Assembly (NCBI GenBank): GCA_903911085.1
Contig: CAIWCC010000106.1
Location: forward strand, 1 to 54,745
Length of the DNA: 54,745 nucleotides
Direction of reading: 5' to 3'
DNA from: an uncultured Bacteroidales bacterium
GTDB taxonomy: Bacteria > Bacteroidota > Bacteroidia > Bacteroidales > Paludibacteraceae
Shown here: piece by piece, positions 2,624 to 19,808 of the stretch
How positions within the stretch are numbered: position 1 is the stretch's first letter
How the letters are laid out: each line of letters begins with the position of its first letter
The notes under the pieces: generated by a model
Databases searched by the model: none
Told to the model about the DNA's origin: nothing
Seen by the model: only the letters and a program-made list of their open reading frames with translations
Position numbers and translations under genes: made by a program

Positions 2624-3480
2624 AGGTAAGTCGAACAAATGAAAAACTGAATACGGGATATGCAATGCTTTCTTGGTTGGATATTGCTGTACATTGCACC
2701 TTAAAACGAGACAATGATGTAAAATGCTACAAATGTTACGCAACGCTGTCCCTGCATTAAGATGCAGAAGCTACATTCCGACCTGACGAAAGCACCGAAA
2801 TATCTGTAGAAACTTTACAGATAAATAGGTTCTACTCAAAAACTATTTAAATTTAATGTGATTAGCCCCCAATGATATTCGGGGATGAAATGTATTCTAA
2901 TGGCAGAACTCTGAAGGTGTTCAATATCATCTATCAATTGAAATTAAACTCCTTCAGAGTTTTTTATGCCCATACATTTTAATCCATGGGTTACCACCCA
3001 TGGCTAATCATATTAAACTCCTTCAGAGTTCATTGATGAGGAACCAATAAGTTTAATGCATGGTTCTTACTAAATGACAAAATTTTACGAATTTATGTAA
3101 TTAATTGTAAATAAACTGATTAAACATGGGGCTTTCTTGGTAAACCAAGCGGCAGAGTCGAGCGGCCCCAAACCCTACTCACTTTTTTGCCTTGATGCAA
3201 AAAAGTAAGCAAAAAAAATCAAGACTTCGCCTGCTTCACTCGAAAAATTTGTCGTTTGTATGCTGAAAACTTTTAAACTCGTACCGACGAAATACGTCGG
3301 CACTCAAACACAAAAGTTTTCTACGCACACTTCACTCCATTTTTCGGCTCACCAGACGATGTCAGTCCAGTGCGAGATTCGTACATATTGGTAACACACA
3401 CATTTCAACAATATAAAATTCTATGTTTTTTTGTCATGTACTAAGTGCCTAGTTATAAAAAATACATTTTAATAACCTGA

Positions 3481-3510
3481 TTGTAAAAACAAATCTTATT
3501 CGTACATTTG
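3481..3510 (+). promoter_or_regulatory. Bacteroidota-type promoter of element A
   Basis: TTG (3481-3483), a 19-nt spacer and TACATTTG (3503-3510) fit the TTG/TAnnTTTG promoter form of this phylum. The same promoter, with near-identical flanks, is repeated at 4673-4702. Confidence 0.6.
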
Positions 3511-3860
3511 CAATTCCAAATTAAAAAAAACAATTAATCATTATGTACCAACGCGGCGTGCCACGTTTCTACTTGAAAAAACAATCAAAAATAAAATTGC
3601 AACAGGTACAGTAGCGGTATGCATCGTCTCTACCAAATCGACAACAAATCGATAATAATACATTTTTCAACATTTTATAAATAGCATTTAGCTATTGTTC
3701 GCAAGTTCGAAACCTAGGAAATTTCAAAAAAAGCGAATATAGAAACGAATAATTGAGCAAAAATGCTCACGCCAATTGGCGTGGGCTTTTGACTTGTCTT
3801 TTGTGTGGGTAAAAATTAAATACCTTAACAAACGAACGGAGTTGAGCTCACGCTTTTTTT
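3511..3860 (+). ncRNA. Structured RNA-like element, copy A
   Basis: Order of parts: leader with CGACAACAAATCGAT; small hairpin AATAGC/GCTATT (3680-3696); outer arm GTTCGAAACCTAGGAAA (3705-3721); conserved AAGCGAA; then GCTCACGCC (3765-3773) paired with GGCGTGGGC (3778-3786), followed by TTTT. The strand GCGTGGGCT (3779-3787) can instead pair with AGCTCACGC (3845-3853), which is followed by seven T (3854-3860) like an intrinsic terminator. The two pairings exclude each other. The outer arm has no partner inside copy A; its exact partner is in copy B at 4552-4569. It precedes the small membrane peptide/HTH pair. RNA identity and function are inferred; no known riboswitch family was recognised. 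Confidence 0.55.
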
Positions 3861-3905
3861 GTGCGCTAATTTCCCAAAATAACGGCTAAAACCAAACAAA
3901 AATCA

Positions 3906-4082
3906 ATGAAACAAATTCAACACACACTGCTGATAATCAGTAAACACTTATGCTTTTCAATATGCTGCTTTTTCAGCGTGGGATTGCTATGTGCGGTTGT
4001 GTGTGTCGCTTTTTGTATTGGAGATTTGTACAAAATTAGAAAGACAGTAGAATTAAACCCTTTAATTCTCACCTGTCTATGA
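3906..4082 (+). CDS. 58-aa small membrane protein
   Basis: A short open frame starting MKQIQHTLLIISKHLCFS and ending at TGA 4080-4082. Residues about 8-42 form a strongly hydrophobic, cysteine-rich stretch compatible with one or two membrane-spanning helices, followed by a short basic tail (LYKIRKT). The stop overlaps the ATG of the helix-turn-helix gene (ATGA), the usual sign of translational coupling, so the frame is likely real despite its length. It starts 46 nt after the T-run of element A. I recognise no family. A holin-like, toxin or signalling peptide role would be speculation. Confidence 0.5.
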   Translation: MKQIQHTLLIISKHLCFSICCFFSVGLLCAVVCVAFCIGDLYKIRKTVELNPLILTCL

Positions 4083-4420
4083 GGAAAGCCAAACCAAGTG
4101 TACTGGTAGAATTAACGGGACCGATTGCCGAAGTATTTCTGGCAAAATTCCAACATCTCGAAGAGCAAAATGAAAAGCTGATAAAAAGCGTTGAGCAGAA
4201 TAAAAACTTAATGGATAAAATGATGGAAGAAATAAAAAATCTGAGAAATAATCCCAAAATATCATTTACAAGAAAAGAAACAGCTAACATGTTAAATATG
4301 TCGGTCAGAACACTCGATAAATGTAGAGATCAAAACCTAATAAAATACTGTAAACGTGATGGCAAAGTATGGTTTACAATGAAACAGATGGATGATTTTA
4401 ATAACGGATGCGAGGTTTGA
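4079..4420 (+). CDS. Helix-turn-helix (excisionase/MerR-like) DNA-binding protein
   Basis: A 113-aa protein. Residues about 20-58 (LEEQNEKLIKSVEQNKNL and onward) have the heptad pattern of a coiled coil, suggesting a dimer. Residues about 62-110 (SFTRKETANMLNMSVRTLDK, then KVWFTMKQMDDF) form an HTH_17/excisionase-type winged helix as found in small regulators on Bacteroidota mobile elements. The start ATG overlaps the stop of the upstream 58-aa membrane peptide, so the two are probably co-translated. The pair sits between two copies of the element's 3' half. A hairpin follows the stop. It could regulate neighbouring genes or the element itself; the target is unknown. Confidence 0.75.
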   Translation: MRKAKPSVLVELTGPIAEVFLAKFQHLEEQNEKLIKSVEQNKNLMDKMMEEIKNLRNNPKISFTRKETANMLNMSVRTLDKCRDQNLIKYCKRDGKVWFTMKQMDDFNNGCEV

Positions 4421-4422
4421 AA

Positions 4423-4455
4423 AGTGAGGGCTTCACTTTGAGTGAAACCCTCACT
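4423..4455 (+). terminator. Hairpin after HTH gene
   Basis: AGTGAGGGCTTCACT (4423-4437) pairs with AGTGAAACCCTCACT (4441-4455) apart from one internal mismatch. It begins 3 nt after the HTH stop codon. No strong T-run follows, so it may be a weak terminator or a palindromic repeat; a related hairpin lies at 20011-20043. Confidence 0.5.
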
Positions 4456-4478
4456 AGAGCCACTTCAGCCAAATCGAA

Positions 4479-4510
4479 TTTGACCAGACCAATCATTTTT
4501 TGTACTTTTG
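4479..4510 (+). promoter_or_regulatory. Bacteroidota-type promoter before element B 3' half
   Basis: TTTG (4479-4482), a 20-nt spacer and TACTTTTG (4503-4510) match the phylum consensus closely. Transcription would run straight into the 3' half of element B, giving a short RNA of about 85 nt ending at the T-run 4592-4598. Confidence 0.6.
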
Positions 4511-4598
4511 CAACTTAAGCGTGGGCTATTTACTTATTTTTCTATGTGGGCTTTCCTAGGACCTCGAACGCGGATAAGGAGTAACTCACGCTTTTTTT
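4511..4598 (+). ncRNA. Structured element, copy B 3' half
   Basis: It begins with AAGCGTGGGC (4517-4526), which pairs with CTCACGCTT (4585-4593) followed by a T-run, making a closing stem plus terminator. Inside it are TTTCTAT (4539-4545) and TTTCCTAGGACCTCGAAC (4552-4569). These complement ATAGAAA (3739-3745) and GTTCGAAACCTAGGAAA (3705-3721) of copy A, about 840 bp upstream. The conserved GCGGATAAGGA follows, as in copy C. This half looks like the original 3' part of copy A, displaced by insertion of the HTH unit. Confidence 0.5.
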
Positions 4599-4672
4599 GT
4601 GCAATAATATCGTAAACTTAAAAAGCACATTGACTGAAATGTGTTGTAGGGAAATTTATTTTATTAAATAGA

Positions 4673-4702
4673 TTGTTCAAACAAATCTTATTCGTATATT
4701 TG
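4673..4702 (+). promoter_or_regulatory. Bacteroidota-type promoter of element B 5' half
   Basis: TTG (4673-4675), a 19-nt spacer and TATATTTG (4695-4702). The segment AACAAATCTTATTCGTAnAT is shared with the promoter of copy A. Confidence 0.6.
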
Positions 4703-4900
4703 CAATTCAAATTATCATATTAACAAACTATCGAATACCCATCGACAACAAATCGATGCAATGATATATGGCGTAAGGTAGAGACAGGGCATGCCCTGTC
4801 TCTACCTGAAAACCATTTTTTCAACATTTTATAAATAGCATTTAGCTATTGTTCGTGTGATAGCAACCTAGTAAATTTCATTAAGCGAAATTACAAATAA
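4703..4900 (+). ncRNA. Structured element, copy B 5' half
   Basis: It repeats the leader of copy A (CGACAACAAATCGAT, then TTTTCAACATTTTATAAAT) and its small hairpin AATAGC/GCTATT. It carries a perfect 30-bp palindrome at 4777-4806 built on GAGACAGGGCATGCCCTGTC. The outer arm is altered (AACCTAGTAAA) and no matching 3' arm is found downstream, so this copy appears incomplete. It ends just before the promoter and start of the HEPN gene. Confidence 0.45.
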
Positions 4901-4962
4901 GAAAATGTAAAAAGCTTTCGATAGCGAAGGGAGAATATGACCGAAAAATCTATTGGTATTTG

Positions 4963-4970
4963 TATATTTG
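4963..4970 (+). promoter_or_regulatory. Probable -7 box of the HEPN/MNT operon
   Basis: TATATTTG fits TAnnTTTG and lies 21 nt before the HEPN start codon; TTCTTAAGGATATG around the start offers a weak ribosome-binding site. No clear -33 box is seen. Confidence 0.4.
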
Positions 4971-4991
4971 CAAAAATAAATTCTTAAGGAT

Positions 4992-5369
4992 ATGATTAAC
5001 ATAGACAAACAAGTAGATTATTGGTTTAATAGTGCTTCTGACGATCTTGAATCAGCTAAATTACTAATTGTAAATAAACGGTATTTGCATGGTTTGTTTT
5101 TTTGTCATTTGGTTATAGAAAAAGCAATTAAAGCAATCGTTGTAAAACAAACTCAAGAAATTGCACCCCGATCACACAATCTTTTATATTTAGCTGAAAT
5201 TGCAAAATTAGCTTTTTCAGATGAGGATGAAATCTTTCTTGGAATACTTATGAAGTATCAACTTCAGGGTAGATACCCAGACTATCAGCCAAACATACCT
5301 GATAATGATAAGATTAATAACTATTTGATTAAAACGGAAAGTTTATTATTATGGCTACAACAGAAGTAA
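4992..5369 (+). CDS. HEPN domain protein (toxin partner of MNT)
   Basis: A 125-aa all-helical HEPN domain protein. Recognisable blocks are YWFNSASDDLESAKLLIVNK at the N-terminus, FFCHLVIEKAIKAIV (about residues 37-51), RSHNLLYLAE (R60, H62) and QGRYPDYQP (about 97-105), all typical of HEPN proteins paired with minimal nucleotidyltransferases. In characterised pairs the HEPN protein is usually a ribonuclease toxin, neutralised by the MNT partner. The canonical R-x4-6-H ribonuclease motif is not obvious here, so catalysis is uncertain. Its end overlaps the MNT gene by 19 nt, showing an operon. Confidence 0.85.
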   Translation: MINIDKQVDYWFNSASDDLESAKLLIVNKRYLHGLFFCHLVIEKAIKAIVVKQTQEIAPRSHNLLYLAEIAKLAFSDEDEIFLGILMKYQLQGRYPDYQPNIPDNDKINNYLIKTESLLLWLQQK

Positions 5370-5668
5370 TTGAAATATTAAAAAAATATATCCTGCTATT
5401 AAACAGCAACGGAATATCGGTTTACAAAGCAATTTTATTTGGAAGCTACTCCAACAATACAGCAACCGATGCTAGCGATATAGATGTTATGATTGTATCT
5501 GAGAAATACGATGAAACAGATGATGAGGCAGCTGGAAAAATTTGGAAACTTACCCGATTGGTGAGTACTAAAATTGAACCGTTTTTAATTGGAAAAAACA
5601 AGTTTAACAGTGATGAAGTATCGCCGTTGATTCAGCTAATCAAAGAAAAAGGCATTGAAGTTGCCTAA
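5351..5668 (+). CDS. Minimal nucleotidyltransferase (MNT) antitoxin
   Basis: A 105-aa protein with the nucleotidyltransferase signature LFGSYSNNTATDASDIDVMI: G31-S32 and the metal-binding D43-x-D45. Proteins of this size and motif pair with HEPN toxins and in studied cases inactivate them, some by transferring AMP to the toxin. The catalytic residues look intact. The start ATG overlaps the HEPN gene by 19 nt. Substrate and toxin role are inferred from family and context. Confidence 0.85.
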   Translation: MATTEVIEILKKYILLLNSNGISVYKAILFGSYSNNTATDASDIDVMIVSEKYDETDDEAAGKIWKLTRLVSTKIEPFLIGKNKFNSDEVSPLIQLIKEKGIEVA

Positions 5669-5778
5669 TAGTAGTTTAAATTACAAAAATACCCGTACAA
5701 ATACGGCTGATTTAGACCCTGAAATACTTTATTATGACAGTAAAATTTTAAACGAATAGAAAAAATAACAATTTCGGA

Positions 5779-6001
5779 CAAGGGGGCATGCCCCCTTGCA
5801 TTAAACATTTTTCAATATATTAATTAAATAGCATTCTGCTATTGTTCGCGCCTTCGAAACCTGAGAAATTTCTTAAAGCGAACATGTAAATAGAGTAATG
5901 AGCAAAATGCTCACGCCAAACGGCGTGGGCTTTTGACTTATCATTTACATGTGGGCTTCTCAGGGCCTCGAAGGCGGATAAGGAATTAGTTCACGCTTTT
6001 T
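5779..6001 (+). ncRNA. Structured RNA-like element, copy C (complete)
   Basis: The most compact copy. A perfect 20-bp palindrome CAAGGGGGCATGCCCCCTTG (5779-5798) is followed by hairpin AATAGC/GCTATT (5827-5843), then outer stem CCTTCGA-AA-CCTGAGAA (5851-5867) with TTCTCAGG-GCC-TCGAAGG (5957-5974), inner stem ACATGTAAAT (5882-5891) with ATTTACATGT (5943-5952), and hairpin GCTCACGCC/GGCGTGGGC (5909-5930). GCGTGGGCT (5923-5931) can alternatively pair with AGTTCACGC (5988-5996) using G-U pairs, just before T5997-6001. Both outer and inner stems differ in sequence from copy A/B yet keep pairing. It ends 59 nt before the TPR-peptidase gene, so it may be its leader. Confidence 0.6.
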
Positions 6002-6060
6002 GCATCTATAAAGCTGGACTTCAAATCTTATCTGACCAATGGCAGCCGCTCGGCAAGCCA

Positions 6061-8046
6061 ATGACAATTATATACCAAAAAGAAGATTTCCTTTACACCT
6101 TATTTCCTGAACTTGCCAATGGCAACGACGATCTGATAATCAGTACTCTTACTGCTTATTACAGCTTTGGTACTTATAAACCTACTGTAGTAATATCCGG
6201 TGATATTATTTGCATCGAAATTGATACCATAAGCATTCAGAAACACGAAGCCGATTACCGACGAGTGGTTACATTGTGCGAAAAAGGAAATTATGCCACT
6301 GCCAAACCCATCCTGACTAAACTTATTGAACAAAATCCCACCAATTCGGAATATTACCGCATAATGGGACAAATACTTTCCGACGAAGGTAACCAGGAAG
6401 AAGCCATTAATTGCCTGATAGATGCCCTGCGCTGGGATGCAAATAATAACTGGGCACTTACCATGATGGGCAATATTTTTGCCAACTACAAAGCCGACTT
6501 GCCAACGGCAATGAAATACTATCAACGGGCTATAGAGTTGCACCCCGAAGATTATACTACCATTTACAATGTGGGTGCGTTGCATTTCAAAGCGGGCAAT
6601 TTCGTCGAAGCCAAAAAATACCTGTATCAATCGCTCAGTATCAACAACACTTACCCAAACACGCATCATGTGCTTGCACTGATGGCAATGGCCGAAAAAG
6701 ATTTAGCATCCGCATTTTACAGTGCCACACAAAGTTTGCGTTACAATAAACGGCAGGATGAACTGTACCGCAAAACGCTTTCGCTTATGGTGGATGCAGC
6801 GCAAAAACTGATTCAGACCGACACAGGAAGAACCACTTACCGTAACTTTCGGAAACAGTTGGAGACAGAATGTGGAAAAACCATCGACATAGTAAAAGAT
6901 ACCACCATCATAACTGCTGCAAAATGTGAATTTGCCGAAGTGCATCACCGCGACCGCCATATTGTGCTCTTCAACCCCGACTACAAAGCAGTGGAACACC
7001 TAATAATGCACGAACTTTGCCATTTGCAATTGGCTACCGAAGCCCGCAAAGCAGGACTTAACAAACTTTTTACCTCCGATGCTACTAAAAGAGCTGCTTT
7101 TGCTAAAAGCATAGAACCAACCGTACAGCGATTGCGAAAAATGCGGTTAGAAGAAACCGAAATCAGCAAATTTGCAAACGGGCTGTTCGATGGCATAAAC
7201 CTGCAAGCCTACAACGCACCCATCGATTTGTTTATCGAAGATATGTTATATAGCTCCTATCCCGAATTACGACCTTACCAGTTTATTTCGCTCAATAATC
7301 TTCTCGAAGAATCGCTTAACGGCATAACCGACAAAGGTATAGTGGAAATTACACCCAAAGATATTTTCTCGAAAAACAAAACCTACAACCTAGTAAACGC
7401 CTTGCAATTAAAGGACTTATACGGCATTGACCTCACAGCCGAATTCCATGCCACCAAAGCTGAATACCAAACGGCAACCGCTTTTTATAGCGAATACATG
7501 GAATACAAAGACGACCGCCAACCAGCCGAGGAATATGAACTGCTGCAACATTGGGCGGACGACCTGAACCTTAGCGCCTATTTTCAACTGGTGGACGAGG
7601 CTACTTTTTACGATGAAAATACGGCTCAGAAATCCATGTCGGATTTATTTGACAAATTCAGTGCACCAACTTCCAACAATTCTGACAATAATGATGATGA
7701 CCAAGAAGCCCTGATGCGCCGCTTCATAGCCACTCAAAAAGCCAACGGTACCAATGCCGATGTGGTGATATACATGGTGGAAGCCCTCAAGTATTTCGAA
7801 AACATGACCGTGGAACAGATTAAAAACATAGCAGTAGCCATTGCCATGCAAGGTGCGCAAGGTTATGACCCACTCAAACAATACAGCGTGGAGGCCATTC
7901 CCAACAAAACCTTCATGGGACTTCAAATTCTATCTTACTACTACGTGAGCTTTGCCCTGGCACTGCCCGACGTACTGATGGAACTGAACCTGAATTACCA
8001 TGAGGAGTTTTTGCTGGCGAAGGGAATGAAAAATGGGGTGAATTAA
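6061..8046 (+). CDS. TPR protein with HExxH metallopeptidase-like domain
   Basis: A 661-aa cytoplasmic protein (no signal peptide). Residues about 75-250 contain four to five tetratricopeptide repeats (NYATAKPILTKLIEQNPTNS, then further helical pairs ending in NP/HP turns). Residues 317-321 read HELCH inside HLIMHELCHL, the zinc-binding HExxH signature with glutamate 318 as catalytic base; E393 in LFIEDML is a possible third ligand. The C-terminal 260 residues are unrecognised and include an acidic Asn/Asp linker near 540-550. It starts 59 nt after structured element C and ends 40 nt before hsdR, so it may be co-transcribed with the restriction genes. A protease or its inactive relative used in defence is plausible; the substrate is unknown. 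Confidence 0.65.
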   Translation: MTIIYQKEDFLYTLFPELANGNDDLIISTLTAYYSFGTYKPTVVISGDIICIEIDTISIQKHEADYRRVVTLCEKGNYATAKPILTKLIEQNPTNSEYYRIMGQILSDEGNQEEAINCLIDALRWDANNNWALTMMGNIFANYKADLPTAMKYYQRAIELHPEDYTTIYNVGALHFKAGNFVEAKKYLYQSLSINNTYPNTHHVLALMAMAEKDLASAFYSATQSLRYNKRQDELYRKTLSLMVDAAQKLIQTDTGRTTYRNFRKQLETECGKTIDIVKDTTIITAAKCEFAEVHHRDRHIVLFNPDYKAVEHLIMHELCHLQLATEARKAGLNKLFTSDATKRAAFAKSIEPTVQRLRKMRLEETEISKFANGLFDGINLQAYNAPIDLFIEDMLYSSYPELRPYQFISLNNLLEESLNGITDKGIVEITPKDIFSKNKTYNLVNALQLKDLYGIDLTAEFHATKAEYQTATAFYSEYMEYKDDRQPAEEYELLQHWADDLNLSAYFQLVDEATFYDENTAQKSMSDLFDKFSAPTSNNSDNNDDDQEALMRRFIATQKANGTNADVVIYMVEALKYFENMTVEQIKNIAVAIAMQGAQGYDPLKQYSVEAIPNKTFMGLQILSYYYVSFALALPDVLMELNLNYHEEFLLAKGMKNGVN

Positions 8047-8086: not shown

Positions 8087-11000
8087 ATGGCATTTAATGA
8101 GAATACACGCGTAAAAATTCCTGCTATCTTGCATTTGTGCCGTTTGGGGTATACTTATCTTTCGTTGAAAAACGCTCAGTGGGATATCAATACAAATATA
8201 TTCACTGATTTATTTAGCGAAAGTATGCTGAGGATAAATCCTGAGTTGGAGAAAAGTGATATTAAAAAGGTTTTTGAGAACGTATCTCTTGCACTTGATA
8301 ACGAGGATTTAGGACAGGCTTTTTTCAATATGCTTACTGCCACTTCCGGCACAAAGTTGATTGACTTTGCCGATTTCAGTAATAATTCGTTTCATGTTGT
8401 AACAGAGTTGCCCTGCAAAAATGGGGATGAGGAATTCCGCCCCGACATAACGCTCTTAATTAATGGAATGCCTTTGGCTTTTGTTGAGGTAAAAAAGCCA
8501 AACAATCATGAAGGAATACTTCAGGAGCGTGACCGAATCAATGTTCGATTTAAAAACAAGAAGTTCCGCAAATTCATAAATATTTCGCAGGTATTGGTTT
8601 TCTCCAACAATATGGAGTACGACAATGAATCTATTGAACCAATTCAAGGTGCATTTTATTCCACCACTTCCTATTCAAGTGCCAACTTCAACTGCTTTCG
8701 GGATGAGGAAACATTTGATTTAAAAACGCTGTTAAGACCTGAGGATGATACCTTGGAGAACGTGGTTTTAAAAGACAACAATCTTTCCACCATTAAATAC
8801 TCACCGGAGTTTATCACCAACAAAGAACCCAATACGCCCACTAATAAGATATTGACTTCTTTGTTTAGTTATGATAGATTATCAATGCTTTTAAAATACT
8901 GCTTTGCTTATGTGCAAGAGGTCAAAGGGCTTGAAAAGCATATCATGCGTTATCCTCAATTGTTTGCGACCAAAGCAATTGAGCGTACCATTGAAAAAGG
9001 AATCAAAAAAGGCATTATCTGGCACACCCAAGGAAGTGGCAAAACAGCTCTTTCATTTTACAATGTGCAATACCTCACCGATTATTTTCAGCGAAAATCC
9101 GTAGTTCCAAAATTCTATTTTATTGTTGATCGCATAGATTTGCTGGAACAAGCAAAGAAAGAATTCAGCATGCGTGGTTTGGTGGTGAATACGGTAAGTT
9201 CAAAAGATGAGTTGTTGGCAAATTTTAGATTACGGCAAGCCACTCATAACCTATCAGGCAAGCGGGAAATTACAGTGGTGAATATCCAAAAATTCAAAGA
9301 TGATACCGAAGTGTTGAGAGCAAATGATTATGACATTAACTCACAGCGTATTTACTTTTTGGACGAAGTACACAGGAGCTACAACCCAACAGGTAGCTTT
9401 CTGGCAAACCTTATTAATTCCGATAGAGAAGCAATTATTATCGGCCTAACCGGAACGCCACTGATAGCCAACGACAGACGGTCGAAAGATACTTTTGGGG
9501 ATTACATACACAAGTACTATTACAATGCTTCCATAGCCGATGGTTATACCTTGAAGCTGATACGGGAGGACATTGAAACCACTTATAAAATTCAATTACA
9601 ACAGGCATTAAAAGATATTGAGATATTAAAAGGCGATTCGGACAAGCGTGTAGTGTATGCGCATGAGAAATTCACCGAACCTTTGATAGATTATATTGTA
9701 GAAGATTTTGTTAAGAGCAGAATCCGTTTTGGCGACCATACCATTGGCGGTATGGTTATTTGTGATAGTTCAAACCAGGCACGCAAGTTGTTTGAGATTT
9801 TTATCAATAAATACAATCCTTCTCAAAAAGTGGTTGAAACTGTTCAGCCCTATTTGATAGCTGCCGAACCGTCGCCTGAATATGGTACCTATAAGAAAAA
9901 ACAAAAGAATCTGACTGCTTCGCTTATTTTGCACGATGTGGGCAGTAAAGAAGAACGCAAAAAAGAAGTGGAAGATTTCAAAGATGGAAAAATCGACATA
10001 CTTTTCGTTTTCAACATGTTATTGACTGGCTTTGATGCCAAACGACTTAAAAAACTATACATTGGTCGGGTAATAAAAGATCACAATCTGTTGCAAACGC
10101 TAACACGTGTAAATCGTCCTTATAAAAAATTCAAATACGGTTATGTGGTTGATTTTGCCGATATACGCAAAGAGTTTGATGCTACCAACAAAGCCTATTT
10201 TGATGAGTTGAAGGATGAGTTGGGCGATGAAATGCAAAACTACACCAACCTGTTTAAATCGACAGAAGAAATTGAAGAAGAACTCAGAGATATAAAGGAA
10301 AAATTATTTCATTACAATTTAGCCAATGCCGAAATCTTCTCACAGCAAATAAGCTTGATTGAAGACCGTAAAACGGTATTGGATATCAAAAAAGCATTGG
10401 AAAATGCCCGTAACTTGTACAATCTTATCAGGTTGTCCGGTCATTTTGATATGTTGGAGAAAGTGGACTTCAAAAAATTGAATGAGCTGTACAACGAAAC
10501 AACAAGGCATTTGGCTTTGATTAATCTGAAAGAATCGATTCAAAACAATGTTGACTCCACCAATCTGCTGAATGTGGCATTGGAGAATGTTGTGTTTATG
10601 TTCCGCAAAATATCGGAAGCAGAAATGGTTATTGCCGACCAGCTCAAAGATACACTTCGTAAAACCAGGGAAGCATTAAATAGTAACTTCGACCAGACCG
10701 ACCCCGAATTTATTTCGTTATACGAGGAACTCAAACGCTTGTTCGACAAAAAGAACCTCGATGAAATTACGCAAGAGGATATGAAAAACAATATCGGTTC
10801 ATTGCAACAGATTTACGATACGGTAAGCGAGCTTAACCGCAAGAACAACTTGCTGAAAGCCAAATACGAGAACGACAAAAAATACGCTCGCATTCACAAA
10901 CGGATTTTAGAAAATGGTACTGTCTCAAAACGGGAAAGTGAGATTTGCGAAACCTTGTTGGAAATAAAAAAACAAGCTGACGACAAGGTGTTGATAAATA

Positions 11001-11167
11001 CACAAATGCTCAACAATGAAAGCTATTTTGATAAAATGATGATTCAAATGGTGATTGGCAACTTCGGGAAAAGCAAAATTGAATTGAACCCCGAATCAGC
11101 CAAATACATAAATAACTGTTTGGTAAAAGAATACATAAACGAATATCAAGGTAGGTATCAATGGTAG
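8087..11167 (+). CDS. hsdR: Type I restriction enzyme R subunit
   Basis: The 1026-aa motor and nuclease subunit of a type I restriction-modification complex, which translocates unmethylated DNA and cuts it. The N-terminal nuclease domain shows a PD-(D/E)xK core: D120 in RPDITLL, then E134-V-K136 in VEVKK. The SF2 translocase follows, with Walker A at 316-320 (QGSGKT) and DEVH box at 426-429; LTGTPLI and LTRVNRP motifs follow. The C-terminal 300 residues are helical (R-subunit C-terminal domain). Length is normal for the family and all catalytic motifs are intact, so the gene should be functional. It precedes hsdM but is separated from it by 449 bp holding an inverted-repeat element. Confidence 0.95.
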   Translation: MAFNENTRVKIPAILHLCRLGYTYLSLKNAQWDINTNIFTDLFSESMLRINPELEKSDIKKVFENVSLALDNEDLGQAFFNMLTATSGTKLIDFADFSNNSFHVVTELPCKNGDEEFRPDITLLINGMPLAFVEVKKPNNHEGILQERDRINVRFKNKKFRKFINISQVLVFSNNMEYDNESIEPIQGAFYSTTSYSSANFNCFRDEETFDLKTLLRPEDDTLENVVLKDNNLSTIKYSPEFITNKEPNTPTNKILTSLFSYDRLSMLLKYCFAYVQEVKGLEKHIMRYPQLFATKAIERTIEKGIKKGIIWHTQGSGKTALSFYNVQYLTDYFQRKSVVPKFYFIVDRIDLLEQAKKEFSMRGLVVNTVSSKDELLANFRLRQATHNLSGKREITVVNIQKFKDDTEVLRANDYDINSQRIYFLDEVHRSYNPTGSFLANLINSDREAIIIGLTGTPLIANDRRSKDTFGDYIHKYYYNASIADGYTLKLIREDIETTYKIQLQQALKDIEILKGDSDKRVVYAHEKFTEPLIDYIVEDFVKSRIRFGDHTIGGMVICDSSNQARKLFEIFINKYNPSQKVVETVQPYLIAAEPSPEYGTYKKKQKNLTASLILHDVGSKEERKKEVEDFKDGKIDILFVFNMLLTGFDAKRLKKLYIGRVIKDHNLLQTLTRVNRPYKKFKYGYVVDFADIRKEFDATNKAYFDELKDELGDEMQNYTNLFKSTEEIEEELRDIKEKLFHYNLANAEIFSQQISLIEDRKTVLDIKKALENARNLYNLIRLSGHFDMLEKVDFKKLNELYNETTRHLALINLKESIQNNVDSTNLLNVALENVVFMFRKISEAEMVIADQLKDTLRKTREALNSNFDQTDPEFISLYEELKRLFDKKNLDEITQEDMKNNIGSLQQIYDTVSELNRKNNLLKAKYENDKKYARIHKRILENGTVSKRESEICETLLEIKKQADDKVLINTQMLNNESYFDKMMIQMVIGNFGKSKIELNPESAKYINNCLVKEYINEYQGRYQW

Positions 11168-11616
11168 TGACATCACCTTGTAATGACCTCACCCCCAACC
11201 CCTCTCCTTGAGGAGAGGGGAGTAAGACGCAGTTTGTAGCGAGTGTAGGGTTTAAGGAGTAAGATAAATATCGGATTGTTTTTTGGGGCTAAAGCCGAAA
11301 ACTTCTAATCTTTTTTCCTCCAGCTAAAGCAGGAGGCAATTGATTGGCAGTGTGCAAAGAATGAAAAGGAGGCAATTGACTGGAATTAATGATAATTATT
11401 CAAAATAATATAAAAAAACAGGATATATTACATTACCTAAAAAATATATAAACTACGTCTTACCCCCCTCTCCTCAAGGAGAGGGGCTGGGGGTGAGGTG
11501 TAAAAATATGATAGATGCGAAATCGCATAGGTTCAATAGGATTGGGCTTTAGCCCATTCTTCATAAATAAAAAAGATATTGGCTTTAGCCAAAATGATAT
11601 TAAAAATACAACATAC
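11168..11616. other. hsdR-hsdM spacer with inverted-repeat element
   Basis: No gene. It contains the 43-bp inverted repeats at 11187-11229 and 11456-11498, a CCTCC-AGCTAAAGCA-GGAGG hairpin near 11318-11337, and two GGCTTTAGCC-type palindromes near 11540-11595. Such palindromic repeats are common in Bacteroidota spacers. No consensus promoter for hsdM was identified. Confidence 0.7.
11187..11498. repeat. 312-bp element with 43-bp inverted ends
   Basis: The left arm (11187-11229, beginning CCTCACCCCCAACCCCTCTC and ending TAAGACG) is the reverse complement of the right arm (11456-11498) with about two mismatches. Each arm is itself palindromic around CCTCTCCTTGAGGAGAGG. The internal 225 bp has no coding potential. 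It is MITE-like or a pair of opposed REP units; no clear target duplication was found. Confidence 0.65.
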
Positions 11617-13242
11617 ATGGTAACACAAGATTTCACGGTACAAACAAAAGAGCTGATTGATAACCTAAAAGGAGTTTGTACTTCATACGGGTTGGGAAAC
11701 GATGGCAATGAATTTAAAATCATTACACAGGTATTCCTCTATAAATTTATGAATGATAAGTTTGGCTATGAAGTAAAACATATAGATGCAAAACTAAAAG
11801 AATCGGATAATTGGGAACAGGTAATAGCCGGTTATTCCGACAATCAATATGAAATGCTATTGTTGCAGATGAACCCCGACAGTGCCAAGCTGAAACGGGA
11901 ACATTACCTGTCGTACCTCTACAACAAACAAGACGGAGAAGAATTTGCCAAATTATTCGACGATACATTGCGTGATATTGCCATTTTCAACAACGATATT
12001 TTTTCGGTAAAAACTGCTACTGGTGCAAAAATCACCCTGTTCGACGAATTAAGCAATTACATTACCGACAGTTCACAACGCGACAATTTCTGCAAAGCCA
12101 TTATCAACCAGTTGGTAAATTTCAGTTTCGAGAAAATCTTTAGCCAAAAGTTCGATTTCTTCTCTACCATTTTCGAATACCTGATAAAAGATTACAACAA
12201 AGATGGTGGCGGAAAATATGCCGAGTACTATACACCGCACGCAGTAGCCAAAATTATGGCCGCTATTCTGGTAGATGGTCCGGTGAGCAATGTTACGTGC
12301 AATGACCCTTCGGCTGGTTCGGGTACTTTGTTAATGAACTTGGCACATGCCATTGGCGAAGACCGCTGTACTATTTACTCGCAGGATATATCCCAAAAGT
12401 CGAGCAGTATGTTACGACTCAATTTGATTTTGAACAACCTGGTACATTCCATTCAAAATATTATACAAGGCAATACCATACTCGCACCCTATCACAAAGA
12501 CGGTGAGAAACTCAAGAAATTCGATTTCATTGTTTCCAATCCACCATTTAAACTCGATTTCAGTGATTATGCAGCAGACTTGGACAGCAAACAAAACGCT
12601 GAACGTTTCTTTGCAGGAATACCCAATATCCCCAAAAAGGATAAAGATAAAATGTCCATTTATCTGCTATTCATTCAGCACATTATGTATTCTTTATCAA
12701 GTACAGGAAAAGCAGCCATAGTGGTACCCACCGGATTTATTACGGCTCAAAGCGGCATTGAAAAGAAAATACGCGAACGCTTGGTAGAAAAGAAAATGCT
12801 TCGGGGAGTGGTAAGTATGCCGAGCAATATCTTTGCCACTACCGGTACCAATGTGTCCATTTTGTTTTTAGATAAAGCTAATACCAAAGGCGATATTGTA
12901 CTGATGGATGCTTCCAAACTCGGTACTACCGTAAAAGAAGGTAAGAACCAAAAAACGGTACTATCAGACGAAGAAGAACAATTGATTATCAATACTTTTA
13001 ATCAACATAAAGCAGTTGAAGATTTTACGGTGGTGGTTTCGTACGACCAAATAAAAGAAAAGAACTATAGCTTTAGTGCCGGACAATATTTTGAAGTCAA
13101 AATTGAATATACCGATATTACAGCAGAAGAATTTGAGGCTAAAATGAACGGGTTTAAACGCAATTTAGCGTCTCTTTTTGCCGAATCTAAAACCTTAGAA
13201 ATGGAGATTCAGAAACAATTAAACAGTCTGAGTTATGAATAA
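11617..13242 (+). CDS. hsdM: Type I DNA methyltransferase M subunit
   Basis: A 541-aa N6-adenine methyltransferase that, with HsdS, methylates host DNA and forms the core of the restriction complex. The helical HsdM N-terminal domain (about 1-125) is followed by the methyltransferase domain, with SAM-binding DPSAGSGT at 230-237 and catalytic NPPF at 308-311. Both motifs are intact. I place the start at 11617 (MVTQDFTVQTKELIDNLK) because family similarity begins there; the frame is open back to 11515 but that part comes from GGCTTTAGCC repeat sequence. The end overlaps the YhcG-like gene by 8 nt, indicating one transcript with it and hsdS. Confidence 0.95.
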   Translation: MVTQDFTVQTKELIDNLKGVCTSYGLGNDGNEFKIITQVFLYKFMNDKFGYEVKHIDAKLKESDNWEQVIAGYSDNQYEMLLLQMNPDSAKLKREHYLSYLYNKQDGEEFAKLFDDTLRDIAIFNNDIFSVKTATGAKITLFDELSNYITDSSQRDNFCKAIINQLVNFSFEKIFSQKFDFFSTIFEYLIKDYNKDGGGKYAEYYTPHAVAKIMAAILVDGPVSNVTCNDPSAGSGTLLMNLAHAIGEDRCTIYSQDISQKSSSMLRLNLILNNLVHSIQNIIQGNTILAPYHKDGEKLKKFDFIVSNPPFKLDFSDYAADLDSKQNAERFFAGIPNIPKKDKDKMSIYLLFIQHIMYSLSSTGKAAIVVPTGFITAQSGIEKKIRERLVEKKMLRGVVSMPSNIFATTGTNVSILFLDKANTKGDIVLMDASKLGTTVKEGKNQKTVLSDEEEQLIINTFNQHKAVEDFTVVVSYDQIKEKNYSFSAGQYFEVKIEYTDITAEEFEAKMNGFKRNLASLFAESKTLEMEIQKQLNSLSYE

Positions 13243-14254
13243 ACCAATTCAAAATATTTCTGTTGCTTTTTTACACGAAATAAAAACTATTATAGGTCAA
13301 TCCCGCACCAATGCAGTACGCAGCGTAGAGTTTTACAGGGTGGAAATGTATTGGAAATTAGGTGAGCGCATTTTCAAAGAAGAACAGCAAGGAAAAGAGC
13401 GTGCCGATTACGGCTCTTATTTGATTCAGAATCTTTCCAAAGAATTAGAACCTGAGTTTGGCAGCGGGTTTTCTGTCAGACAGTTGGAACGGTGCAGGCA
13501 ATTTTATCGCAATTATCCAATTGCGTCCGCAGTGCGGACGCAATTGAACTGGATGCAATACAAAATGCTTATTTCCATTGAAGATGCCTCAAAAAGAGAG
13601 TATTACGAACTGGAAGCGGTGAAAAATGCCTGGACAGGGCGTGAGTTGGAGCGACAAATCAACTCAAATCTTTTCGAACGATTGCTATTGAGTACCGACA
13701 AAGAAGCGGTGATGGCAATAGCACGTAACGAGCGACTGCCCGAAACGCCACAGGAAATAGTGAAAGACCCCATGATACTGGAATTTCTGGGACTGGAACG
13801 CAAACCGCATTACTACGAAAAAGAACTGGAAACAGCTCTTATCGAACATTTACAGCATTTTATGCTCGAGCTGGGCAATGGTTATTGTTTTGTAGCCCGA
13901 CAAAAACGCTTTCTGATTGAAGACGACGAGTTTTTTGCCGATCTTGTTTTTTACAACCGCCTATTGCGCTGCTTTGTAATTGTGGATATTAAAACCGAAA
14001 AGATAAGCCATAAAGACCTGGGACAGTTGCAGATGTATGTAAACTATTACGACCGACACGAAAAACTGCCAGAAGAAAATCCAACCATTGGGATTTTGCT
14101 CTGTGCCAATAAAAACAACGAAATGGTGAAACTGGCACTGCCCGAAAACAATCAAACCATACTGGCAAGCCAATACAAATTGTATTTACCCACCGAACAG
14201 CAACTGTTGGACGAAATTAAAAAAGAAATGGAAATTGGAGGGATTGAAGTATGA
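13235..14254 (+). CDS. YhcG/DUF1016 family PDDEXK nuclease
   Basis: A 339-aa protein of the YhcG family: N-terminal DUF1016 helical domain (about 10-150, with YWKLGERIFKEEQ and GSGFSVRQLERCRQFYRNYP) and a C-terminal PD-(D/E)xK nuclease-like domain (about 165-325). Putative catalytic residues are D236 (FFADLVFYN) and D251-I-K253 (IVDIKTEK). Members occur often inside type I R-M operons, though their role there is unsettled. The gene overlaps hsdM by 8 nt and hsdS by 4 nt, so it is translated with them. A perfect 14-bp-arm palindrome (13518-13546) lies in frame at about residues 95-104 in the linker after NYP, which looks like an in-frame repeat insertion. Confidence 0.9.
   Translation: MNKPIQNISVAFLHEIKTIIGQSRTNAVRSVEFYRVEMYWKLGERIFKEEQQGKERADYGSYLIQNLSKELEPEFGSGFSVRQLERCRQFYRNYPIASAVRTQLNWMQYKMLISIEDASKREYYELEAVKNAWTGRELERQINSNLFERLLLSTDKEAVMAIARNERLPETPQEIVKDPMILEFLGLERKPHYYEKELETALIEHLQHFMLELGNGYCFVARQKRFLIEDDEFFADLVFYNRLLRCFVIVDIKTEKISHKDLGQLQMYVNYYDRHEKLPEENPTIGILLCANKNNEMVKLALPENNQTILASQYKLYLPTEQQLLDEIKKEMEIGGIEV
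13518..13546. repeat. Perfect palindrome inside the yhcG-like gene
   Basis: CAATTGCGTCCGCA, one central G, then the exact inverse arm. It is translated as PIASAVRTQLN within the coding frame and keeps the frame open. Confidence 0.8.
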
Positions 14255-15543
14255 GTAATTATGATTTCGTAAAGTTAAATCAATTATGCCTCAAAATCAC
14301 CGATGGCTCTCATTATAGCCCGAAAGGGATCAATGAAGGAATTCCCATGTTATCAGTAAAAGACATGTTGGATAATCGTTTTTCTTACAATGATTGTAAA
14401 TTCATATCAACTTCCGATTATCTTGACTTAGTCAGAAGTGACTGTAAGCCACTAGTTAATGATGTAGTAATAGCAAAGGACGGAAGTTATTTGAAATATG
14501 TTTTTGTAATTAAGGAAGAAATTGACCAAGCAATTTTATCCTCAATTGGTATTTTAAGACCAAATTTAAAAAAAATAATTCCTGAATATCTGAAGTACTA
14601 TCTACAAACAAAATCAGTAAAAGAGACGGTTGCAAAGAAATACGTTTCAGGTAGTGCATTGCCAAGAATTATTCTAAAAAACTTTGGGGAGATTGATGTA
14701 GTTTATACTAACATTCTAACCCAACAGAAAATCGCCTCAATCCTTACTTCCTTAGATTCTAAAATCGAACTCAATAACCGCATTAATGCCGAGTTGGAAG
14801 CAATGGCTAAAACGCTGTACGATTATTGGTTTGTGCAGTTCGATTTTCCGAATGCCGAAGGCAGACCCTATAAGAGTAGCGGTGGTAAAATGGATTGGAA
14901 TGTGGAGTTAAATAGGGAGATACCGGAAGGATGGGATTTGGGAGAATTACAAGATATTGCTAACATAAAGATGGGGCAATCACCTCCCGGAGAATCATAT
15001 AATGATGAAGGGGAAGGAATGATTTTCTATCAAGGTTGTACCGATTTTGGAAATCGCTTTCCTACCGTTCGTAAATACACAACTCAACCAACACGTTTTG
15101 CCAAAGAAGGCGATATTCTTTTAAGTGTAAGAGCACCAGTAGGAACTCTCAATATTGCAAAAGAAGATTGTTGCATTGGGCGTGGTCTTTCGGCATTAAA
15201 CAGTAAAGATAATTGCATTGCTTACCTTTTTGGGGTAATGGTAAATTTAAAGCAAATTTTTGATAGACGAAACGTTGACGGAACAACCTTTGGGTCAATA
15301 ACCAAAGACGATTTGTTTTCTTTGAAAGTTGTAAGACCCGACAAAGATATTCTAAAACAATATCACAATATAATCAGTCCTGCTTTTGAGAAGCAAAATC
15401 AAATCGCTCTCGAAAACCAACAACTCTCTTCCCTTCGTGATTGGTTGTTGCCAATGCTTATGAATGGGCAAGTGAAAGTTGGAGAAGATAAGGAATCCGA
15501 AATATCAATGGCTGCAGAGCCAAAAATAAAATATGGGAAATAA
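14251..15543 (+). CDS. hsdS: Type I restriction specificity subunit S
   Basis: A 430-aa DNA-recognition subunit that sets the sequence recognised by both methylation and restriction. It has two target-recognition domains (about 5-150 and 225-385). The central conserved helical region (TQQKIASILTSLDSKIELNN, then AKTLYDYWFVQFDFP) and the C-terminal conserved region (ENQQLSSLRDWLLPMLMNGQ) separate and close them as in normal HsdS. It seems full length. The start overlaps the previous stop (ATGA). A decayed copy of its last 17 codons lies downstream at 16039-16104, showing that a second hsdS end once existed here. Confidence 0.95.
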   Translation: MSNYDFVKLNQLCLKITDGSHYSPKGINEGIPMLSVKDMLDNRFSYNDCKFISTSDYLDLVRSDCKPLVNDVVIAKDGSYLKYVFVIKEEIDQAILSSIGILRPNLKKIIPEYLKYYLQTKSVKETVAKKYVSGSALPRIILKNFGEIDVVYTNILTQQKIASILTSLDSKIELNNRINAELEAMAKTLYDYWFVQFDFPNAEGRPYKSSGGKMDWNVELNREIPEGWDLGELQDIANIKMGQSPPGESYNDEGEGMIFYQGCTDFGNRFPTVRKYTTQPTRFAKEGDILLSVRAPVGTLNIAKEDCCIGRGLSALNSKDNCIAYLFGVMVNLKQIFDRRNVDGTTFGSITKDDLFSLKVVRPDKDILKQYHNIISPAFEKQNQIALENQQLSSLRDWLLPMLMNGQVKVGEDKESEISMAAEPKIKYGK

Positions 15544-17922: not shown

Positions 17923-19191
17923 ATGATTCAGGAATTTTACGTCGAAAACTTCATGTCATTTGGAGAGCGACAATACGTATCATTTGAAGCAAGCAGCGAT
18001 AAAACATACCTCGATGAACTAACCGTAGAAGTAAAGCCAGGAGTTCGGTTACTAAAAACTGCCATCATTTATGGTGCAAATGCTTCAGGTAAATCTAATT
18101 TGCTTATAGCCATTGAAACACTTTGGCAATTACTTATCACACCAAAAGATGTAAAAAGCAAGTTGATATCAAATTACAAACCTTTTGCATTAAACATTGG
18201 CGAACCAACTGTAATGGGTATTACATTTTACATAGGAGATATAAAATATACTTACGAAGTAATTTATAATGCATCTTGCATTCTTTCTGAAAAAATGGAA
18301 TATCTAAATGGGGTTCGGAAGGCGTTGTTTTACGAACGAAGCGATGGAAATAAAATCTCATTTGGTACAACTATTGGATTGTCGAAAAATTCTGCTAAAA
18401 CAATTATTTCGAATAGTTTAAATAATCATACTGTATTGTCGACCTTTTCGAAAGTGATAATTGAGGATGAAAATTCTGAATTTGAAAAATTATTCCACTG
18501 GATTGAAAAATATGTACATAAAATCGGTTCACATACCAAATCGTTAAATATTGGATTAGAGGCTGAGCTTGACACGAATTTAAAAAGCTTTATTGTAGAT
18601 GCCCTTCGTGTTTCTGATTTTAACATCACTGATTTTAAAATAATTGAAGAATTAGAAGATGATGTTGACTTACCGGATGATTACATAATTAAATCGAATA
18701 TCGTATCTGAAGAAAAAGCAAAATATCTGTACAAAAGACGAGTAAAGAAAATCCAACTAACGCATTCAAGTTCGAAAGGTGAATTTTTATTGAAATTAGA
18801 AGAAGAGTCGTTAGGTACTATTGAATACTTTAGGTTAAGCAGAAAAATGTATGACTTAATACGCTTTGATTGTATTTATTTAATAGATGAATTGGAAGAC
18901 AGTATTCACTACGATTTAATGCTAAATGAGTTACTTCGATTTTTAAGAAATAGTAATCGGTCACAATTGATTTTTACAACTCATAATCAACAACTTTTAG
19001 ACGAAGACTTTATACGCCGTGACATGGTAAAGTTGGTTGAAAAATCGCATGAAACTGCTGAAAGTCAAGTATATTCGGCTTCAGATTTTAAATTGCATAA
19101 GAAGTTGTCGTTGTTTAATGCCTATAAAATTGGTAAATTTGGAGCAAAACCTGAATTGGGTTCTACTTTAATTGATAATTCAGAAAACTGA
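17923..19191 (+). CDS. RloA-like AAA/ABC-type ATPase
   Basis: A 422-aa SMC/ABC-related ATPase of the AAA_15/AAA_21 group (COG1106-like). Walker A GANASGKS spans 51-58 near the N-terminus after FYVENFMSFGERQ; a degenerate ABC signature ESLGT precedes Walker B LIDELEDS with catalytic E323; the switch histidine is H354 in FTTHNQQLLD. The middle region (about 150-280) is helical and variable. The next gene, 5 nt downstream, is RloB, so this corresponds to RloA of the R-linked ORFs originally noted in Campylobacter type I R-M loci. Such pairs are regarded as defence modules; trigger and effector are not shown by the sequence. Confidence 0.85.
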   Translation: MIQEFYVENFMSFGERQYVSFEASSDKTYLDELTVEVKPGVRLLKTAIIYGANASGKSNLLIAIETLWQLLITPKDVKSKLISNYKPFALNIGEPTVMGITFYIGDIKYTYEVIYNASCILSEKMEYLNGVRKALFYERSDGNKISFGTTIGLSKNSAKTIISNSLNNHTVLSTFSKVIIEDENSEFEKLFHWIEKYVHKIGSHTKSLNIGLEAELDTNLKSFIVDALRVSDFNITDFKIIEELEDDVDLPDDYIIKSNIVSEEKAKYLYKRRVKKIQLTHSSSKGEFLLKLEEESLGTIEYFRLSRKMYDLIRFDCIYLIDELEDSIHYDLMLNELLRFLRNSNRSQLIFTTHNQQLLDEDFIRRDMVKLVEKSHETAESQVYSASDFKLHKKLSLFNAYKIGKFGAKPELGSTLIDNSEN

Positions 19192-19196
19192 TTTGT

Positions 19197-19808
19197 ATGG
19201 CAAGAATTAAACAACTTGAACGAAAACAGATTGTTATTATTGGCGATGGCAAAACTGAATCAATTTATGTTGAGTCATTGAAAGATGTTTTTAAGGATAA
19301 ACTATCGGGATATAATCCTAAACCATTAATACCCAAGCATACTTCTGTAGCTGAATTGAAAAAGCTTATTGAGGCAAATATCGGCTATGATAAGGTCTTG
19401 TGTGTTGTTGATATGGATACAAAATTGAAAGATCCGAAAGAAATGACACAGTACCTAAAATTAAAACAAAAATACCGAAAGAGCAAAAATGTGATATTCT
19501 ACGAAACACATCCATGCACCGAATTATGGTTTAATTATCATTTTCAATATACTACGGCAGAATTTGGATTATTTGAGCCCGATTTAAAAAGACAACTTGA
19601 CAGAAAAATACCTGGTTATGAAAAGAAATCACCCTTTTGTACACATCAACATTTAATTAAATGCGGTGGTAAATTTGACACTGCTGTTTTAAATGGTCGC
19701 AAATCAATTGACTCCAAAAAATCAGATGACAGAAATTACACCTATTCGGAGATGGTTCGTTTTTTTGAAGAAATAGGTGTTGTAGATAAACTGGATGATA
19801 AAAAATAA
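19197..19808 (+). CDS. rloB: RloB family protein (TOPRIM-like)
   Basis: A 203-aa RloB protein. The N-terminal IIGDGKTESIYVESL (E21) and VVDMDTK (D72-x-D74) form an acidic triad like that of TOPRIM-type nucleases, and ETHPCTELWFNYHF with YEKKSPFCTHQHLIKCGGKF are conserved family blocks. It is probably the effector of the ATPase encoded 5 nt upstream; nuclease action is inferred from the fold. It ends 11 nt before the C-terminal piece of a split pseudogene, so the pair entered as a unit by insertion into that gene. Confidence 0.85.
   Translation: MARIKQLERKQIVIIGDGKTESIYVESLKDVFKDKLSGYNPKPLIPKHTSVAELKKLIEANIGYDKVLCVVDMDTKLKDPKEMTQYLKLKQKYRKSKNVIFYETHPCTELWFNYHFQYTTAEFGLFEPDLKRQLDRKIPGYEKKSPFCTHQHLIKCGGKFDTAVLNGRKSIDSKKSDDRNYTYSEMVRFFEEIGVVDKLDDKK

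Follow-up and report, generated by a model that had tools for sequence, protein, structure and literature searches.

The question raised by contig CAIWCC010000106.1 (assembly GCA_903911085.1), a 54,745-nt stretch of an uncultured Bacteroidales bacterium of the Paludibacteraceae that forms the window analysed here, is what kind of folded sequence recurs near one of its ends. The contig, C106 of its own genome, carries three related stretches, A, B and C, in which an earlier model-made annotation, here called the original prediction, saw an undescribed RNA-like element with mutually exclusive pairings: a cis-regulatory leader, a small-RNA family or the mobile end of a cassette. That observation is confirmed by the present analysis, and its interpretation is supported as far as the comparison of sequences reaches. 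With a probability of roughly 0.6, the element is a family of terminator-bearing 5' leader RNAs (attenuators) that would regulate accessory genes. A leader suits most copies, a small RNA suits the detached right half that A and other split copies have, and there is little to favour the cassette end.

A rod and the helices that compete with it

Copy C is complete (5827-6001, on the plus strand, as are all window features below unless stated otherwise). It is recognised by its fold, by co-variation among its homologues and by a score of 193 bits with model R1, of which it is itself a training sequence; R1 was built from six complete copies, on contigs C106, C131, C191, C202, C150 and C111, and a second model, R2, from 24 divergent copies. 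The helices of C are P1 (5827-5843), P6 (5844-5849/5878-5883), P2a (5850-5857/5968-5975), P2b (5860-5867/5957-5964), P3 (5882-5891/5943-5952) and P4 (5909-5917/5922-5930), and its 3' end consists of a terminator arm (5988-5996) followed by a T-run (5997-6001). The fold is far beyond chance, with an energy as RNA of -71.7 kcal/mol compared with -40.9 +/- 3.8 in 200 shuffles (z -8.1). Because the value for C folded as DNA is similar (z -8.4), folding alone cannot decide between RNA and DNA. The sequence does contain what the original prediction described: its motifs, its AATAGC/GCTATT hairpin, an outer and an inner stem, and each of the two alternative partners of GGCGTGGGC. The prediction had overlooked that the AAGCGAA motif contains the partner of GTTCGC, which together form helix P6 and thereby an additional competing pairing.

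The claim that pairing-preserving changes reveal a structure is borne out by many homologues with compensatory changes. In an alignment of 46 distinct strong copies, fitted to the model, 97.5% of the cells of the long rod are paired, as compared with 39-44% after sliding by 1-3 columns; both sides have changed in 24 of 54 pairs, with 313 such cells versus 81.5 after shuffling, a count that none of 500 shuffles reaches. A MAFFT alignment of the 24 divergent copies, from which the rod columns were themselves picked, gives 93.9% paired cells versus 35-43% when slid, and 27 of 43 pairs are compensatory. The same column scan of the divergent alignment finds helices that are unable to form fully alongside the rod. 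Terminator T1, which has strand P2a' in common with the rod, shows compensatory change in 7 of 9 pairs, and terminator T2, which has strand P4' in common with it, in 3 of 8. The terminator/antiterminator layout originally proposed is thus upheld in that the competing terminator-type pairings themselves co-vary.

Permutation of partners among copies leads to the same helices. Pairing within P6 scores 14.20 between a copy's own strands (74 copies), above the maximum of 13.54 in 5000 permutations, and the terminator arm scores 14.28 (88 copies), above a maximum of 12.98 in 5000; the T-run is present in all 88 copies tested. By eye, P6 is also kept with different letters in loci drawn from across the phylum, as GTTCTTGT/ACAAGAAC in L217 and TTATTCTGT/ACAGAATAA in L219. 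Pairing of the arm with sequence past the T-run exceeds permutation in 74 divergent copies and in 8 phylum-draw copies (p 0.009), and does not exceed it in 45 strong copies (p 0.05). In loci L217-L223, from outside the order, the arm (AGTTCC, AGTCCC, AAACCC) has a complement shortly 5' of the start codon, which may represent a further pairing in read-through RNA.

Distribution and gene neighbourhood

The element is widespread among relatives of its host. Searches used a limit of E 0.001 per genome, at which the stated E-values predict less than one genome by chance in each search; these values are rough, the search filters lose weak matches, and every tally counts the own genome. That Paludibacter-type genome holds 14 R1 matches, C among them, and C used as a DNA query finds 14 places in it, part of them halves. 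At genus level R1 is found in 25 of 40 genomes, which range from 0 to 15 in matches per genome, and it is found in 87 of 150 genomes (24 of 33 genera) of the family, while R2 is found in 87 of 295 genomes (63 of 184 genera) of the order. A phylum-wide draw yields R2 matches in 30 of 395 genomes, comprising the own genome, one other member of its order, 27 further members of its class and one genome from outside that class. A single IUPAC pattern retrieves 69 stretches in named genomes, every title being Bacteroidota or a taxon within it (including Paludibacter, Paludibacteraceae, Prolixibacteraceae, Salinivirgaceae, one Prevotella and several Porphyromonas cangingivalis), and R1 matches all 69, one of them cut off at the locus end. 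Plasmid and phage records contain no match to C, and viral contigs contain one pattern match. The element's absence from Rfam, as originally claimed, stands for Rfam 15. Its covariance models give no match above the gathering score over the window; in 3400-6100 the matches listed at E up to 10 are all sub-threshold, and over 20 loci there is a single match, to DUF805 RNA in L213, that lies beside the element, with none on it.

Copies lie consistently in front of genes. Among 124 distinct copies with flanks, four are too near a contig end, and 108 of the remaining 120 have a co-directional open reading frame (ORF) within 300 nt, at a median gap of 60 nt; in the other 12 the ORF is further off (6), on the opposite strand (5) or missing (1). 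A promoter-like box occurs in only 3 of the 108 gaps between T-run and ORF, so that expression of the gene probably needs read-through. The TANNTTTG box, which we take to be the Bacteroidota promoter core, occurs within 260 nt upstream of 62 of the 75 divergent copies and is joined by a second box in 27 of these 62, as compared with 22 and 7 on the reverse strand and means of 11.1 and 0.6 after base shuffling. Of 71 boxes of divergent copies, 58 sit 47-131 nt from the element.

Restriction-modification genes, a link that the original prediction did not contain, predominate behind the strong copies. The set of 43 such copies, minus four that have no usable ORF within 300 nt (L188, L142, L133, L152) and plus three, makes 42, part of which are close relatives from different genomes and hence not fully independent; ORFs were called mechanically, and those of L013 (135 aa) and L055 (85 aa), perhaps spurious, were counted as non-restriction. 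Restriction-modification-type genes, with ResIII, SNF2 and PLD helicases included, follow 34 of the 42 Paludibacter-type copies, 19 of them scanned singly and 15 assigned from family totals plus sequence. The Pfam totals for the 42 include N6_N4_Mtase (14), EcoRI_methylase (5), N6_Mtase (4), ResIII (4), SNF2 (2), HSDR_N_2 (2) and PLDc_2 (2); L187, whose Pfam match is below the cut-off, was counted through PADLOC. The other eight are window C and L054 (both TPR), L155, L156, L147, L013, L164 and L055. Upstream of 39 copies, no methylase or restriction family is present among the families listed (25 of 29), which include ORF6N (4), DUF2442 (4), nucleotidyltransferase (4) and PIN (3). Small ORF6N, KilA-N, DUF2442, PIN and HEPN/nucleotidyltransferase genes recur directly upstream of strong elements, for example at window 4992-5668 and in L015, L146, L150 and L187. 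In the own genome, an element stands directly in front of three of the four N6_N4_Mtase matches (C111, C131, C150), and 2 of 16 N6_Mtase matches belong to operons that follow one (C106, C202), so that most of its type I methylases are not behind a known copy.

Restriction is not the sole cargo. Of 63 divergent copies with a usable ORF, 62 were scanned (L092 was left out), and the genes behind them are a mixture: some encode methylases and helicases, others lipoproteins, small regulators or secreted proteins. In subgroup A9 the scan covered 23 proteins, from which no union was formed. The divergent elements of L074, L079, L103, L111 and L124 precede look-alike ORFs of 69-110 aa that, by eye, are partly small XRE-type regulators.

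Behind C itself, after a gap of 60 nt, lies a gene for a TPR protein (6061-8046; Pfam TPR), followed by a type I restriction-modification operon (8087-15543; Pfam HSDR_N, N6_Mtase, YhcG_C, Methylase_S) that encodes an R subunit (8087-11167), an M subunit (11515-13242), a YhcG-type nuclease (13235-14254) and an S subunit (14251-15543). Perfect palindromes with a GGCATGCC core, of GTAGAGACAGGGCATGCCCTGTCTCTAC and GGGGGCATGCCCCC type, stand just 5' of several elements, at 4776-4807 and 5779-5798 in the window and also in L011 and L013, and resemble short repeats. Further along the window, a pair of genes for an AAA ATPase and an RloB-like protein (17923-19808) is probably another defence module, and the minus strand has three giant ORFs (3816, 5228 and 1690 aa; 21121-53892) that look like secreted surface proteins.

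A copy in two pieces

Copy A has a different organisation. Its leader (3680-3860; R1 match 3681-3858, 82 bits) lies behind a promoter-like box (TACATTTGCA, 3490-3512), identified from sequence by comparison with the promoter consensus and of a kind enriched upstream of copies. The leader contains P1 (3680-3696), the left strands of P2a (3704-3710), P2b (3713-3721) and P3 (3738-3746), the hairpin P4 (3765-3773/3778-3786), and a degenerate right part with a terminator-like arm (3844-3853) and T-run (3854-3860), which pairs poorly with the left half. The stems originally assigned to A and B do exist, but they join the left half of A (3680-3786) to a proper right half that lies about 840 nt further on (4519-4598). 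The gene between them (4079-4420) encodes a helix-turn-helix protein (HTH_17-like, Pfam E 6e-4, below the curated cut-off). The right half consists of P4' (4519-4526), P3' (4539-4545), P2b' (4552-4560), P2a' (4564-4569), arm (4585-4591) and T-run (4592-4598); preceded by its own TANNTTTG box (4503-4512), it looks like a separate small RNA (about 4514-4598), and A like a split version of the element.

Four loci in all (window A, C223, L170 and L154) have this layout, in which a lone right half of about 84-111 nt, with its own promoter-like box and a T-run, stands behind a helix-turn-helix gene. All four proteins match HTH_17, two of them below the Pfam cut-off. In the three split loci that have the leader's left half, pairing with the distant right half is predicted at -40.8 (window A), -36.6 and -37.1 kcal/mol, whereas pairing of the same left halves with their own downstream part reaches only -18.2, -5.7 and -10.5. 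Among 36 right halves from solo copies, 0, 2 and 1 pair as well with the three split left halves. For the solo copies themselves, the own right half is the best partner of the left half in 30 of 36 (mean -47.0 for own and -28.0 for cross pairings). In L170 and L154 the interval from the split copy to the next element contains a gene for a Y1 (IS200-like) transposase, flanked by GTCGC..GCGAC palindromes that resemble REP sequences.

Stretch B, mis-assigned originally, proves to be a 5' fragment (4817-4903), an orphan left half of 36.6 bits for which no right half was found. A promoter-like box 96% identical to that of A lies upstream of it (4682-4704), and the fragment precedes the HEPN/nucleotidyltransferase pair (4992-5668). 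Other lone halves outside the split layout are C191b and contig-edge cases.

Leader RNA, small RNA or DNA site

In the mechanism that these sequences suggest, transcription would start upstream, cross the folded RNA and meet the T-run, and read-through would be required to reach the gene. The left half alone would form the local hairpin P6, with P7 in addition in divergent copies, until the emerging right half drew it into the long rod P2a-P2b-P3-P5-P4. The rod would take up strands P2a' and P4', which would otherwise pair into a terminator whose arm reads G[TC]TCACGC; since it occupies both, it would favour read-through, and termination would be favoured if the left half were kept out of the rod. 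In strong copies the free arm of the predicted folds would mean read-through unless the left half is held. Within the window, the genes gated by C would be those of the TPR/type I restriction operon, while the small RNA of A would bind the left half of A in trans and gate the helix-turn-helix gene. Such an RNA could either terminate or release transcription; one guess is that, by occupying the left strand of P4, it leaves P4' available to the terminator and lowers expression of the gene. The sequences themselves show the structure with its compensatory changes and competing pairings, the T-run, the placement in front of a gene, the association with restriction genes and the split form. Transcription as described, the regulation of termination and its sign all belong to this proposal, as does the signal sensed, which might be a protein or an RNA in trans.

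Several observations weigh against such a leader. Double changes are few in P6 (1 of 6 pairs) and P7 (1 of 9), and T1 and the rod have letters in common, so that part of the co-variation of T1 stems from P2a. Arm occupancy, the sole measure taken from the predicted folds of rod and terminator, adds two further points. Strong copies leave the arm free (at least five arm bases are paired in 7 of 45), and without a factor the switch would just stay on; in divergent copies rod and T1 partly coexist (at least five arm bases paired in 34 of 69), and exclusivity is thus not absolute. The promoter signal, clear for divergent copies, is modest for strong ones, 19 of 45 of which have a TANNTTTG box and none of these 19 a second, upstream one, as compared with 13 and 1 on the reverse strand and 4.5 and 0.2 after shuffling; part of the strong copies may be served by promoters further upstream. 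Finally, the genes behind many divergent copies are not restriction genes but encode secreted or unknown proteins.

The alternatives account for some of these features and meet difficulties with others. Each element might be an independent small RNA: transcribed in full between its promoter and the T-run, it would act in trans, and the adjoining gene would be served incidentally. The 3' T-run, the promoter-like boxes 5' of many copies and the free-looking right halves of the four split loci agree with this, but the near promoter-free gaps before close co-directional ORFs imply that read-through is probably needed, restriction genes stand behind the element and not before it, and the preference of solo left halves for their own right half favours pairing in cis, which leaves small RNAs an unlikely explanation overall. 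An attC-like recombination site or cassette end, acting as folded single-stranded DNA behind which accessory genes are gained, would explain stem letters that vary while pairing is kept, the runs of element plus gene in one orientation in the window, L170 and L155, copy numbers between 0 and 15 among congeners, and the accessory cargo. A DNA site has no need, however, of a T-run and a terminator arm that co-varies with a rod strand; no R1 element lies at the far end of the window operon, and neither plasmid nor phage records match C. The genes upstream, about 380-450 aa in length and considered as recombinases, share no evident family when read by eye, with no profile scan or other recombinase test made. 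The DNA site is accordingly improbable. Very improbable is a leader-peptide attenuator, in which ribosome stalling on a short frame over P4 (MLTPNGVGF and variants) would pick the fold. The 9-codon frame is kept in 29 of 46 strong copies, but its start or frame is lost in the other 17, divergent copies have an ATG there in 42 of 75 with frames of 2-72 codons and none conserved, and there is no run of one amino acid; this candidate was rejected.

Leader RNAs of this general kind are familiar from transcription attenuators of the trp, TRAP, antiterminator and riboswitch types. With these the element has in common a promoter, a folded leader, exclusive antiterminator-type and terminator helices, a T-run and a gene close behind; the promoter-to-co-directional-gene placement is found in 108 of 120 copies, and the T-run terminator competes with a conserved helix, with the partial coexistence in folds described above. 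It differs from them in having no Rfam 15 match, in its long rod with stem letters private to each copy, in its unrelated target operons, restriction genes above all, and in its natural two-piece cis/trans version. In antisense-RNA induced attenuation of the pT181 type, which governs plasmid replication genes, a small RNA binds a leader and chooses between terminator and read-through, much as proposed for the split copies. In these, by contrast, the small RNA would be encoded on the target gene's own strand, downstream of that gene, and it is a homologue of the right half of a cis element. The resemblance to integron attC sites lies in folded variable stems alone, and no attC-model or integrase search was made.

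Antisense RNAs control the EcoRI and Eco29kI restriction systems, according to the portions consulted of PMC3874152; there, too, restriction-modification genes are controlled at the RNA level, as they would be by the element, but through reverse-promoter RNAs within one system rather than through one leader family before several restriction types. The FopS small RNAs of Bacteroides, known here by their description in part of PMC11697453, are likewise a multicopy Bacteroidota family with promoter and terminator; they consist of a single-stranded 5' stretch and one terminator hairpin and act in trans on SusC mRNAs, an architecture unlike the 54-pair rod before a gene found here. No description of the element was found in the open-licence PMC literature, including the portions seen of PMC8040213, PMC3874152, PMC11697453, PMC9723704, PMC2864571 and PMC10994844. 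Since a Flavobacterium transcriptome mentions 64 structured 5' regions (PMC9723704, in part) and PMC8040213, likewise in part, lists thousands of candidates, an unnamed overlap with either is possible. The element is a large structured RNA that has no Rfam 15 match and would belong to an already known kind, the terminator-bearing leader RNA.

What such a leader could mean for its hosts may be considered at two levels. A speculative and rather doubtful extension of the proposal is an RNA lock and key for foreign genes, in which each leader carries a private self-complementary code, joined halves let polymerase through, and a right half that has been split off turns into a small RNA devoted to setting the expression of a linked regulator. 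If this were true, private codes would prevent cross-talk among up to 15 copies per genome, and many immunity operons could be stocked under independently addressable RNA switches. The quieting of restriction systems on arrival, and the later raising of their expression, is known mainly for C-proteins. A few antisense RNAs are also known to control such systems (PMC3874152, in part). The natural cis/trans pair of the split copies would make RNA-RNA recognition measurable, and, if the leader reading is correct, a single leader RNA set before unrelated restriction types would constitute a common control layer in Bacteroidales, with relatives in other Bacteroidota.

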